The position numbers were made by a program, and so were the translations under genes. A stretch of DNA of 64,000 bases, taken from the NCBI GenBank assembly GCA_958296385.1, contig OY282494.1, forward strand, positions 2,996,981 through 3,060,980. The letters are read 5' to 3'. The stretch's first letter is position 1. Every line of letters starts with the position of its first letter. Shown here piece after piece: positions 1,189-58,570 of this stretch. Under the pieces are notes generated by a model, which had not been told where the DNA came from, ran no database searches, and was given only the letters and a program-made list of their open reading frames with translations. The DNA comes from an uncultured Dehalococcoidia bacterium. Lineage in GTDB: Bacteria; Chloroflexota; Dehalococcoidia; Lucifugimonadales; UBA3495.

Positions 1189-2316
1189 ATGACGGCTGCA
1201 TACGGACAACCGCCCCGCCCCGCCAACACCGCTGCCTCCGACGCTGCCGCCGACGCCCCGGCCTTAACCGCCGGGGCGCGGGTGCTGCTGGCGCGGGAGA
1301 ACCTCTGCCTGGCCATGGCCCTCTTTGCCGCCTCGCACCAGGGGCTGATTACCACCGCATTTGTGCCGGCCCGCGCCGACATCTACCTGCAAAACGGCGA
1401 CGTAGTGGACTACGCCGTTCCCCTGGAACTTACCGACAACGCGGCCCTGGTCCGCTGCGCCGGCAACCAAATCCGGGGCGCCTTTGCCCTCTGCGTTTTG
1501 CAGACGCAGCGGGAGCTGGCCAGCGGGTTCCCGGATTTGCTGGCGGACGCCAACGAGGACGCAAACGAATTTGACGCCGACTTGCGGGCGGCCGGCGCCG
1601 CCGTCTATCTAATCGCCCGCAGCGTAGAGCGTGACCTGATTGCGCCCCGGTGGGACATCCCCCCGGACTACCGCCGGCTGCACGCAGTGCCGGCCTTTGA
1701 CTTCGCGCTGGACGCCACCCGGCTGGACGGGCAGGCCGTGCGCTGGGAGCACTTCGGCGGCCTGCCCCGGTTTCTGGACTTGACCCTCTACCTGGCCCGG
1801 CGGCTGGACGAATCGGAGCCGGTCACCGGCCCCGGCGAGTACGGCATTACGGGCGATTTGGCCGGTATGCTGTCGTCCGATGCGGCGTCCGACGGGCCGC
1901 CCGTGATACAACCCGGCTTTGGCAGCGGCGCCGGACGGCTGCGCCGGCCCGATGATGCTCTGTCCAGTGATGCTCTGTCCGGTAATCCGCTGTCCGGTAA
2001 TCCACTATCCGATGCCGCTACGCTATCCGGATGGGTTGCGCCGACGGCTCCGCCGGAACCCCGGTTCGGCATCGCATCCCCGGCTGCGGAGTCCGGGCCG
2101 GTGGGCGATTTCGTAACCGACGCCTGCGCCACCGACGCCGGCGCAATGACGCTGGCCAGCGCCCTGTACACGTCCTATGCCGCCTGGTGCCTGGACAACG
2201 GCTATCTGTCGGTAAGCCAGCGCAAGTTCGGCCTGGAGCTCACGGCGCAGGGCTATCAGCGCAAACGCCGGGGCAAAGGCCGCCACTGGTGGGTTGGCCT
2301 GCAACCCCGGGATTGA
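1189..2316 (+). CDS. Hypothetical protein with a D5/P4-primase-like C-terminal winged-helix segment
   Basis: A 375-residue protein. Residues 1-230 are a compact Ala/Leu/Asp-rich region I do not recognise. A low-complexity Asp/Ser/Leu linker (about 255-280) is encoded by 15-bp tandem repeats. The last ~50 residues (YTSYAAWCLDNG, then SQRKFGLEL and GRHWWVGL) resemble the C-terminal winged helix of phage/plasmid D5/P4-type primases, where the order is Y-W-N-G-S-QR-FG-GR-W-G. No primase or superfamily-3 helicase motifs precede it, so it is not a full primase. The first ATG after the upstream gene is used and has no strong ribosome site. It may be a domesticated fragment of a mobile-element replication protein. 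Coding status is fairly sure; function unknown. Confidence 0.6.
   Translation: MTAAYGQPPRPANTAASDAAADAPALTAGARVLLARENLCLAMALFAASHQGLITTAFVPARADIYLQNGDVVDYAVPLELTDNAALVRCAGNQIRGAFALCVLQTQRELASGFPDLLADANEDANEFDADLRAAGAAVYLIARSVERDLIAPRWDIPPDYRRLHAVPAFDFALDATRLDGQAVRWEHFGGLPRFLDLTLYLARRLDESEPVTGPGEYGITGDLAGMLSSDAASDGPPVIQPGFGSGAGRLRRPDDALSSDALSGNPLSGNPLSDAATLSGWVAPTAPPEPRFGIASPAAESGPVGDFVTDACATDAGAMTLASALYTSYAAWCLDNGYLSVSQRKFGLELTAQGYQRKRRGKGRHWWVGLQPRD
1954..2013 (+). repeat. 15-bp in-frame tandem repeat (4 units)
   Basis: Four consecutive 15-bp units begin at 1954, 1969, 1984 and 1999. Each encodes a variant of the pentapeptide (D/N)(A/P)LS(S/G/D), and a fifth degenerate unit follows. The unit is a multiple of three, so copy-number change would keep the reading frame and only alter linker length. 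Confidence 0.75.
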
Positions 2317-2345: not shown

Positions 2346-2460
2346 CTAATGTCATTCTGAGCGTAGCGAAGAATCTCGGCAGCGTAGCAGCGGCGTTTGT
2401 CGCCAAAGTGCGCGCTACGTCATCGAGATTCTTCGCTGCGCTCAGAATGGCATTGGGGGT
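2346..2460. repeat. Dispersed inverted repeat (REP/MITE-like), copy 1
   Basis: The left arm begins GTCATTCTGAGCGTAGCGAA at 2351 and its imperfect reverse complement ends at about 2453, separated by ~45 bp. The same arms recur at 37686, 41010 and 58453 as full copies, and at 11607, 29144 and 47960 as halves. All copies are intergenic. No ORF lies inside, so it is non-autonomous. Together with the operator at 2554 it accounts for most of the 2317-2660 gap. Confidence 0.85.
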
Positions 2461-2553: not shown

Positions 2554-2607
2554 GTTACACCCACGTAACATCTGCGTAAAACCGGCGTAACACGCTGGCG
2601 GCATACT
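2554..2607 (+). promoter_or_regulatory. Promoter 1 of the micropeptide trio: four 11-bp-phased GTAACA repeats and a -10 box
   Basis: Hexamers GTTACA, GTAACA, GTAAAA and GTAACA start at 2554, 2565, 2576 and 2587, exactly 11 bp apart. The -10-like CATACT lies at 2602-2607, 15 bp after the start of the last repeat, and no good -35 is seen. Known facts: OmpR/PhoB-family activators (PhoB, PhoP, GlnR) bind 11-bp direct repeats that replace the -35 element. Inference: an activator of this family turns on the gene at 2661. Confidence 0.7.
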
Positions 2608-2660
2608 GCACGCATCAAAGGGTCGTACCCCATCAACCAGCCAGCCGGAGAGATACTAGA

Positions 2661-2810
2661 ATGATTGCCATTGCCGCCGCCGCCGCTTTCGTTGGACTGT
2701 TCGCACTGTGGGTCGTAGTCCCCCGCTTCATCCTCCGTCGCCGCGAGAACCAGGCCCCCGCAGTCATTCCGATGCGCCAGGACGACTACGCTCCCATGGC
2801 CGCCGACTAG
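2661..2810 (+). CDS. Single-pass membrane micropeptide, family copy 1 (49 aa)
   Basis: A 49-residue protein: hydrophobic helix AAAAAFVGLFALWVVVP at residues 5-21, then a positively charged RFILRRR stretch, then a polar tail ending in AAD. By the positive-inside rule the tail should be cytoplasmic. Two paralogues follow at 3014 and 3442, sharing the LF-LWVVVP core. The start is supported by GGAG at 2647-2650 within a leader (GGAGAGATACT) shared with copy 2. An 11-bp-phased operator lies upstream and a hairpin terminator downstream, so it is a monocistronic unit. I know no named family. Small subunits or regulators of membrane complexes have this layout, but no partner is visible. Confidence 0.75.
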   Translation: MIAIAAAAAFVGLFALWVVVPRFILRRRENQAPAVIPMRQDDYAPMAAD

Positions 2811-2840
2811 CCGCCATCCGGCATACCCCCCGCGCCATCG

Positions 2841-2866
2841 CCCGGAGCATTGCTCCGGGCTTTCGC
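2841..2866 (+). terminator. Hairpin terminator after micropeptide 1
   Basis: The stem CCCGGAGCA / TGCTCCGGG closes a tiny loop at 2841-2859 and is followed by CTTTCGCTTGCC. The U-run is short, so termination may be inefficient. The same hairpin and tail recur after micropeptide 2. Confidence 0.6.
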
Positions 2867-2899
2867 TTGCCTTGCGCCGGTTTTTAGAATTGGGCGGTT

Positions 2900-2964
2900 T
2901 TTACACGGGCGTAATATTTCCGTAACAATTTTGTAACATTTGCGCGGCGCAACTGGCGCATAAT
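2900..2964 (+). promoter_or_regulatory. Promoter 2 of the micropeptide trio: four 11-bp-phased repeats and a -10 box
   Basis: TTTACA, GTAATA, GTAACA and GTAACA start at 2900, 2911, 2922 and 2933, again in exact 11-bp register. The -10-like CATAAT is at 2959-2964. The gap from the last good repeat to the -10 is 11 bp longer than in promoters 1 and 3, leaving room for one degenerate fifth site at 2944. Confidence 0.65.
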
Positions 2965-3013
2965 GGTAAAACTATCGGGTGCATTTCACCAAACCGTCAG
3001 GAGAGATACTGAT

Positions 3014-3160
3014 ATGCTTGCCCTTGCCGCCGCCGCTTTTGCTGGCCTGTTCTCACTGTGGGTTGTGGTTCCCAACTACCTGCGCCGCCGCGCCGCCAGG
3101 CGCAAGGCTGACCCGGCTGCGATGCGCGACGAGGAGCACGCCTCAATGGCCACCGACTAA
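3014..3160 (+). CDS. Single-pass membrane micropeptide, family copy 2 (48 aa)
   Basis: A 48-residue paralogue of the proteins at 2661 and 3442. The helix LAAAAFAGLFSLWVVVP is followed by RRRAARRK and an acidic tail ending in ATD. An in-frame upstream start at 2963 exists, but alignment with the paralogues and the shared GGAGAGATACT leader (3000-3010) place the start at 3014. It has its own phased operator and terminator. The most basic juxtamembrane segment of the trio is here. Function unknown; probably the same role as copy 1, perhaps a different dose or partner. Confidence 0.75.
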   Translation: MLALAAAAFAGLFSLWVVVPNYLRRRAARRKADPAAMRDEEHASMATD

Positions 3161-3190
3161 CCCCCGGCCGGCATACGCGCTGCGCTACGG

Positions 3191-3216
3191 CCCGGAGCAC
3201 CGCTCCGGGCTTTCGC
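3191..3216 (+). terminator. Hairpin terminator after micropeptide 2
   Basis: The stem CCCGGAGC / GCTCCGGG at 3191-3209 is followed by CTTTCGCGTGCC, nearly identical to the hairpin after copy 1. The terminator was therefore duplicated together with the gene. Confidence 0.6.
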
Positions 3217-3321
3217 GTGCCCGGCGACGATTGCCCGGCGCTGCCGGCGGCGCTGACGATGCTTGCCTTACGACGATGCTTGCCTTACGACGGATGATTG
3301 ACCCGCGGCGCGGCCCGCACC

Positions 3322-3375
3322 GTTACAAGGCTGTTACATTTGCGAAAAACCGGCGTAACAACTTGGCGGCATACT
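3322..3375 (+). promoter_or_regulatory. Promoter 3 of the micropeptide trio: four 11-bp-phased repeats and a -10 box
   Basis: GTTACA, GTTACA, GAAAAA and GTAACA start at 3322, 3333, 3344 and 3355 in 11-bp register. CATACT at 3370-3375 sits 15 bp after the start of the last repeat, the same spacing as promoter 1. The downstream half (ACCGGCGTAACA, then TGGCGGCATACT) is almost identical to promoter 1. Confidence 0.7.
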
Positions 3376-3441
3376 AGCCCCATCGCAAATCGCAGTTCCT
3401 TGCATCGTAATGGAATCGTAATGGATTGGAGGCATAATCAA

Positions 3442-3609
3442 ATGGAAATCATCGCTGCCGCAGCCGCTTTCGTTGTCCTGTTTGCCCTGTGGGTCGTCGT
3501 CCCCCGGTTTTGCATCCAGCGCAAGCAAAAGGCCAACAACCCGGCCCCCCGGCAGCGGTTCTCCACCGAACTGCCCTCCGACCTCCCGGCCCCGCAGGCG
3601 GCGGACTAA
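3442..3609 (+). CDS. Single-pass membrane micropeptide, family copy 3 (55 aa)
   Basis: A 55-residue paralogue. The helix IIAAAAAFVVLFALWVVVP is followed by RFCIQRKQK and a longer proline-rich tail ending in AAD. GGAGG at 3428-3432, nine bases before the ATG, fixes the start at 3442. It differs from the other two by a cysteine just after the helix and the longer tail. A strong GC hairpin with a T-run ends the unit at 3636. Function unknown. Confidence 0.75.
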   Translation: MEIIAAAAAFVVLFALWVVVPRFCIQRKQKANNPAPRQRFSTELPSDLPAPQAAD

Positions 3610-3635: not shown

Positions 3636-3667
3636 TAGCCCGGGGCTGCGTTCCCCGGGCTTTTTGC
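3636..3667. terminator. Bidirectional terminator between micropeptide 3 and the PNPOx gene
   Basis: The GC-rich inverted repeat AGCCCGGGG / CCCCGGGCT is followed on the plus strand by TTTTT. The PNPOx-like gene on the minus strand ends immediately beside it, so the hairpin can serve both convergent units. Confidence 0.65.
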
Positions 3668-37685: not shown

Positions 37686-37796
37686 AATGTCATTCTGAGC
37701 GCAGCGAAGAATCTCGATGTCGTAGCAGCGGCGTTGTCCCCAAAGTGTGCGCTACGCTATCGAGATTCTTCGCTGCGCTCAGAATGACATTGGGGT
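37686..37796. repeat. Dispersed inverted repeat, full copy
   Basis: The left arm GTCATTCTGAGCGCAGCGAA starts at 37689 and the right arm ends TCAGAATGAC at 37789. It is in the gap between the BNR gene and the hydrolase at 37865. Confidence 0.88.
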
Positions 37797-41009: not shown

Positions 41010-41124
41010 CCCCAATGTCATTCTGAGCGCAGCGAAGAATCTCGATGACGTAGCAACGGCCTTTCTCTCAAAGTGTGCATTGCCTCGTCGAGATTCTTCG
41101 CTGCGCTCAGAATGACATTGGGGG
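41010..41124. repeat. Dispersed inverted repeat, full copy
   Basis: The left arm from 41016 and its reverse complement ending near 41119 frame ~45 bp. It lies between the convergent Gfo/Idh and LLM genes, where it can act as a bidirectional terminator. Confidence 0.88.
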
Positions 41125-58452: not shown

Positions 58453-58570
58453 CCCCCAATGTCATTCTGAGCGCAGCGAAGAATCTCGAAATCGTAGGGG
58501 ACACTTTGGGGGTCAACGCCGTTGCTACGTCATCGAGATTCTTCGCTACGCTCAGAATGACATTGGGGGA
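58453..58570. repeat. Dispersed inverted repeat, full copy
   Basis: The left arm starts at 58461 and the right arm ends near 58563, flanked by CCCCCAAT / ATTGGGGG. This gives the longest preserved pairing of the four full copies. It lies between the tRNA and the 3' end of the LLM gene. Confidence 0.88.

Follow-up and report, generated by a model that had tools for sequence, protein, structure and literature searches.

A tandem trio of single-helix micropeptide genes with predicted GlnR-type operators in an uncultured Dehalococcoidia bacterium, and related genes beside ammonium transporter and glutamine synthetase genes

The window (the whole stretch of DNA that was analysed, 64,000 nt) contains three short genes in tandem. 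In the ORF list they are + strand ORFs of 49, 48 and 55 residues, and each has a set of flanking elements (Table 1). The alignment of the three peptides has 18 invariant columns, including A6–A9, F10, L13, F14 and LWVVVP, which gives the motif A-A-A-A-F..LF.LWVVVP. The other two peptides are 50% and 61% identical to the gene 1 peptide. The DNA of the trio is repetitive as well: there are three 95-nt repeat copies, a 63-nt upstream block is present twice (at 2554 and 3322), and the half-sites at 11-bp spacing upstream of the genes form a repeat family of five copies. On the basis of the ORFs, the invariant columns and the shared repeats, the description of the locus as three paralogous single-helix micropeptides, first made in a sequence-only reading, was confirmed. 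The ATG starts are supported because homologues start at the same point. With the trio profile, no fourth copy was found in the 3.3-Mb genome; two weak matches lay inside large ORFs.

Table 1. Positions of the features of the micropeptide locus in the window
Feature	Position	Strand	Details
GlnR-type operator 1 (predicted)	2554..2592	+	GTTACA-GTAACA-GTAAAA-GTAACA, 11-bp period, 0 mismatches; reversed control 0 genome-wide
-10 element CATACT	2602..2607	+	9 nt past operator 1
Ribosome-binding site GGAG, gene 1	2647..2650	+	read from sequence
Micropeptide gene 1, 49 aa, MIAIAAAAAFVGLFALWVVVPRFILRRRENQAPAVIPMRQDDYAPMAAD	2661..2810	+	orthologues in genus-mates; core dN/dS 0.04; helix 3-31
Hairpin 3' of gene 1	2840..2860	+	weak T-run
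GlnR-type operator 2 (predicted), degenerate	2900..2938	+	TTTACA-GTAATA-GTAACA-GTAACA, 3 mismatches
-10-like CATAAT (operator 2)	2959-2964	+	an extra 11-bp period downstream
Ribosome-binding site GGAG, gene 2	3000..3003	+	read from sequence
Micropeptide gene 2, 48 aa, MLALAAAAFAGLFSLWVVVPNYLRRRAARRKADPAAMRDEEHASMATD	3014..3160	+	alignment, genome profile search
Hairpin 3' of gene 2	3190..3210	+	without T-run
GlnR-type operator 3 (predicted)	3322..3360	+	GTTACA-GTTACA-GAAAAA-GTAACA, 0 mismatches
-10 element CATACT	3370..3375	+	9 nt past operator 3
Ribosome-binding site GGAGG, gene 3	3428..3432	+	read from sequence
Micropeptide gene 3, 55 aa, MEIIAAAAAFVVLFALWVVVPRFCIQRKQKANNPAPRQRFSTELPSDLPAPQAAD	3442..3609	+	alignment, genome profile search
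Intrinsic-terminator-like hairpin with T-run, gene 3	3637..3661	+	hairpin prediction

Each gene had also been credited with its own promoter, ribosome site and hairpin terminator. The GGAG-type ribosome sites are there for all three, but no significant classical sigma-70 promoter was found at the trio (1 vs 0.7 expected); in its place, each gene has a predicted GlnR-type activator site and a -10 element. A hairpin does lie behind each gene, but a proper T-run occurs only behind gene 3, and the three hairpins are no excess over shuffled sequences (2.1 ± 1.5). An Rfam search gave no match at the trio.

Other elements lie around the genes. The sequence CATTCTGAGCGNAGCGAAGAATCT is present in ten copies (chance 0), at window positions 2353-2449, 11614, 37691-37786, 41019-41114, 47969 and 58463-58559, with inverted pairs ~73 bp apart in four cases; it is a palindromic dispersed repeat, one copy of which lies just 5' of the trio. 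Between genes 2 and 3 (3255-3288), GACGATGCTTGCCTTAC is duplicated exactly in tandem. A 375-aa ORF at 1189-2316 (+) has a C-terminal Pox_D5 / P4-primase winged-helix match, and a similar primase-like ORF is found just upstream of the micropeptides in genus-mates.

Every one of the 13 genus-mates has homologues of the trio, as do most genomes of the family and part of those of the order, so chance is excluded for the trio. The homologues are frequently arranged in tandem, in two to four copies (four in a row in L090 and L143). A wider profile was positive in 22 of 393 class genomes from other families and in 28 of 400 phylum genomes from other classes. When GTDB genomes were scanned with a single tight pattern, 46 loci matched, of which 45 were titled Chloroflexota/Chloroflexi, Dehalococcoidia or SAR202. 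One copy of the genus type, preceded by an operator, was on a contig of 4.8 kb assigned to Latescibacterota (L153), which is probably misbinned. Altogether, 118 family members were recovered, 109 of them distinct peptides. No Pfam or NCBIfam family came near its curated cut-off, and PHROGs gave no significant E-value, in agreement with the earlier statement that no named family matches. The genes are tiny, which probably explains why the protein-family libraries that were searched lack the family.

Most members are 27–31 residues long, with 27 as the commonest length (38 members; short examples are MEAIIAAGAFVGLFTLWVVLPKRFLKK from L031 and MEAIVAAGAFVGLFTMWVVLPKILIKRSNR from L030). The typical peptide has one helix with the core AFxGLFxxWVV[VL]P, followed by K/R. 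The forms of 48–56 residues come nearly all from the source genus, where, from the comparison of lengths, a minimal peptide appears to have gained tails of 20–28 residues. The helix-plus-tail plan first proposed for the trio holds as far as the helix core is concerned; its tails appear to have been acquired within this genus by an ancestral peptide of 27–31 residues.

Selection was estimated from 13 orthologues of 49 residues. The dN/dS was 0.04 for residues 2–27 (bootstrap 0.01–0.10) and 0.21 for the tail (bootstrap 0.08–0.35); by this estimate, the core is under strong purifying selection. Two outcomes had been named that would refute the sequence-only reading, namely a dN/dS near 1 and the lack of any homologue in related genomes, and neither occurred. 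In a diverse set of 24 members, F10 and P21 never varied, and F14, W17 and V18 were almost constant. We infer that F10, F14, W17 and P21 lie roughly on one side of the helix, and this points to a specific membrane partner.

The first four residues had a net positive charge in 0 of 109 peptides, and the 12 residues after the core were positive in 106 of 109. From this charge pattern and the positive-inside rule, an orientation with the N-terminus out and the C-terminus in was inferred. AlphaFold predicted a single helix (residues 3–31, pLDDT about 76–87) and a loose tail; as a lone helix, the model had no fold usable for a structure search.

Most homologues have the consensus GTAACA-n5-[TG]T[AT]ACA-n5-GnAAA-n6-GTAACA upstream, with an exact 11-bp period, and a -10 hexamer nine bases past it, whose position is conserved in 78 aligned promoters. 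An operator score of at least 17 of 22 was reached by 83 of 100 unique homologue promoters, and the top score of 5000 shuffled controls was 16. Promoters with low scores belonged for the most part to copies found at class level, several of which follow P-II or amt genes, and to second copies that come immediately after a first. A ribosome site was present in 97 of the 100 homologues.

The operator was rare in the genomes. In the source genome (3.3 Mb), a search for the four-box pattern that tolerated three mismatches gave four sites and the reversed control none. These four are the three trio operators and a single site that separates two amt genes upstream of glnA; the trio and amt–glnA are thus observed to have the operator in common. 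In 99 relatives, the strict three-box pattern matched 0–5 times per genome (the control once in all), and it was present in 46 of 47 peptide-bearing genomes. The strong GlnR promoters before amtB and glnA consist of GTnAC-n6 repeated four times (PMC3087709), and the GlnR box is described generally in PMC10704036. A GlnR regulon would have operators of GTnAC/GAAAC half-sites at an 11-bp period, doubled in strong promoters such as those of amtB and glnA, and would count amtB, glnA and glnK/glnB among its other targets. By sequence, our operators satisfy the first point, and the genes behind them satisfy the second. The operators have, judged by their sequence and without binding data, the architecture of actinobacterial GlnR boxes. 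They differ in belonging to another phylum and in that the source genome has few strong sites, three of four driving micropeptides. In two relatives (G046, L080:1957; G016, L081:3411), a GlnR-type operator stands before the gene of an ABC ATPase with two domains, and a permease-like ORF comes next; the pair is possibly a nitrogen-scavenging importer.

A regulator of this type would be an orphan OmpR-family protein with an atypical receiver and a DNA-binding domain closest to GlnR. Three OmpR-type regulators were found in the source genome. Two have full receivers and adjoin kinase-like ORFs. The third (L042, G000:C1:743180-743851) has no receiver domain called by Pfam (in the orthologue at L210 it was below cut-off), and no kinase-like ORF lies beside the gene in a 3.2-kb stretch. 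Its best PDB matches were 8hig (112.6 bits) and 8hih (109.2 bits), which we take to be mycobacterial GlnR, followed by RegX3 (99.8) and MtrA (94.4). It therefore meets the description of a GlnR-like orphan, as do actinobacterial regulators; this identity is based on the ranking of sequence matches and not on a tree. No NCBIfam model among its matches, all far below cut-off, names GlnR. In six order-level relatives (G053, G061, G075, G087, G091 and G097), an orthologue of this gene and the operator share a gene cluster, as in loci L210, L212, L213 and L084. Hence, regulator type, operator, transporter and peptide form one physical unit there.

The linkage to nitrogen genes was seen directly in the relatives. 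At 25 of 32 GTDB loci outside the genus, an amt, glnA or P-II gene lies no more than a few kb away and on the same strand; the neighbours were confirmed by Pfam as Amt, glutamine synthetase, P-II and the winged-helix regulator. With PEP for the micropeptide gene and box for the operator, recurring orders were amt-box-PEP-amt-glnA (L075, L076, L085, L163), box-amt-box-PEP-amt-glnA, amt-PEP-glnA-glnA (L127, L157, L165, L166), amt-PII-PEP-glnA (L111, L112, L116) and PEP-amt (L097, L104, L108). In L210 the order was regulator-box-amt-box-PEP-glnA, then a GOGAT-like ORF, and in L084 it was regulator-box-PEP-amt-PII-box-PEP-glnA. Elsewhere in the phylum, outside this class, amt-PEP or PEP-amt pairs are seen repeatedly, with the operator absent (L241, L242, L243, L246). 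No such neighbour was seen in 7 of the 32 loci, in family f133 or in any of the 14 loci of the source genus, where the peptide genes have moved to a syntenic place behind the primase-like ORF. The f133 loci (L240, L244, L245, L227-L238), from another family of the phylum, have a near-invariant member (MPLPLEALLGIVAFAGLFMMWAVIPARLRKR) that lacks the operator and has neither amt nor glnA in its vicinity.

Of the 79 relatives with an Amt, 47 carry the typical subtype, which includes the trio, and of the 20 without one, none does; for members of the family outside the genus, these counts were 23 of 29 and 0 of 7. The counts are not phylogenetically independent, and the shared locus and incomplete bins contribute to co-loss. 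The peptide does not simply stand in for P-II, as P-II is present in the source genome and most relatives. The only P-II match of the source genome (G000:C1:431779-432102, L214:4280) starts a 300-aa ORF, which could mean a fusion of P-II to another domain or a reading frame that stays open by chance.

On these grounds, we consider it very probable that the trio belongs to one nitrogen regulon with amt–glnA, although there are no expression or binding data. The sequence-only reading had named no function; ours comes from the DNA around the genes and from the gene neighbours of the homologues. Our preferred reading goes further and is held with only somewhat more confidence than doubt: the three peptides would be single-helix membrane proteins induced by nitrogen limitation that act on ammonium uptake, most likely by binding Amt. 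Under nitrogen shortage, an orphan GlnR-like regulator, with L042 as the candidate, would bind the four-half-site operators and activate the three trio promoters together with amt–glnA. The peptides would insert into the membrane with the N-terminus out and the basic C-terminus in, and the conserved F-F-W-P face would most likely pack against Amt and so stabilise or tune the transporter or determine how it responds to P-II. The activator, the topology, the partner and the direction of the effect are inferences. Whether the peptides act on Amt directly is an even call; there are no interaction data. The trio is not adjacent to amt in the source genus, and in other classes the members linked to amt have no operator; both points speak against the preferred reading.

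The main rival is that the peptides act on glutamine synthetase, as a membrane anchor or allosteric helper for GlnA under nitrogen limitation, comparable to the 23-aa sP26 of Methanosarcina mazei, perhaps with Amt-side and GlnA-side subtypes. We regard this as unlikely, yet it has real support. The peptide lies directly 5' of glnA in many loci (L083, L087, L089, L128, L158, L165, L166), and some genomes have two subtypes, of which the copy preceding glnA is more divergent than the copy preceding amt (L084/L167, L146, L162, L248). Moreover, one relative (G080) has a glnA-side copy of the second subtype and no Amt match in its genome. On the other side, the absence of the typical subtype from all Amt-negative relatives would be unexpected (their glnA content was unchecked), glnA is not adjacent in the amt-PEP pairs of other classes, and the conserved residues are in a membrane helix, whereas GlnA is soluble. 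The glnA-side subtype may have glutamine synthetase as its partner. A combined possibility, to which we give rather little weight, is a dedicated membrane subunit or docking helix that joins Amt, P-II and glutamine synthetase, so that ammonium would be assimilated where it enters; it would have Amt-side and GlnA-side paralogues, and the Amt-side peptide would have been amplified and re-tailed in the source genus.

Being small, hydrophobic and encoded by intergenic tandem paralogues, the peptides could also be type I toxins or other membrane-depolarising peptides such as Ldr, Ibs or TxpA. The activator-type promoters common with amt–glnA and the retention of the peptide within amt/gln clusters make this very improbable, and no Pfam, NCBIfam or Rfam match supports it (the blank in Rfam does not exclude a new antisense RNA). 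The operators could instead belong to a Pho-type (PhoB/PhoP) regulon, which also uses 11-bp direct repeats: the half-sites resemble Bacillus PhoP boxes, and the genome has two further OmpR/PhoB-family regulators. This identity was dropped with slightly more assurance still, since the identified targets are nitrogen genes (amt and glnA besides the trio), the pstB-phoU region has no such site (pstS upstream was not covered), and the orphan regulator adjoins the operator in the six order-level relatives. Least credible is a leader peptide, translated only to control downstream amt or glnA and with a product that has no job of its own: the ORF is often the first between operator and amt or glnA, but the genes of the source genus stand alone with hairpins behind them, some copies are 3' of amt, up to four stand in a row, and the F-F-W-P pattern persists at the very low core dN/dS.

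If the peptides act on Amt, as we favour, their closest parallels are small membrane proteins of other transporters. MgtS (31 aa), MgtU (28 aa) and MgtR (30 aa) serve Mg2+ transporters, and MgtU is made alongside the transporter that it stabilises (PMC10710835). AcrZ (49 aa) binds AcrB (PMC10710835). The hydropathy, charge and predicted helix of our peptides fit the single-helix, ~27–50-residue build of such proteins. With the Mgt peptides they have in common the size and, as we propose, a place in the starvation response of the transporter itself; the differences are a P-type ATPase partner and no ammonium link, and no sequence relation is claimed. Transporter interaction is proven for the Mgt peptides and inferred for our family. 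AcrZ is similar in that it has a single helix and packs, within the membrane, against a transporter, but its partner is an efflux pump, it has no tandem paralogues and its regulation is different.

Nitrogen-related small proteins are known from Methanosarcina mazei. sP36 (61 aa) acts on Amt through GlnK1; it is soluble, lacks a transmembrane helix and moves to the membrane (PMC10714827). It resembles our proposal as a small nitrogen-related protein acting on the Amt ammonium transporter, but the strongly hydrophobic helix excludes that our family is sP36 (no sequence comparison was made). For sP26 (23 aa), glutamine synthetase was the reported partner, and stable binding was not reproduced structurally (PMC11957540). 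The likeness here is that of a nitrogen-related micropeptide, again with no sequence comparison behind it. A literature search found no comparable small membrane protein of Amt and no GlnR regulon in Chloroflexota, with subscription journals thinly covered.

The family is real, conserved, unnamed and tied to nitrogen. Ammonium transporters are present in all domains of life, and we know of no membrane-embedded small subunit for them. To our knowledge, this would be the first family of transporter-associated small membrane proteins for Amt. If our reading is true, the phylum-wide micropeptides beside amt, P-II and glnA would be the first membrane-embedded small subunit of Amt. SAR202 bacteria and their relatives are abundant and mostly uncultured, living in the sea and in sponges; a GlnR-type nitrogen regulon outside Actinomycetota would then exist in them.
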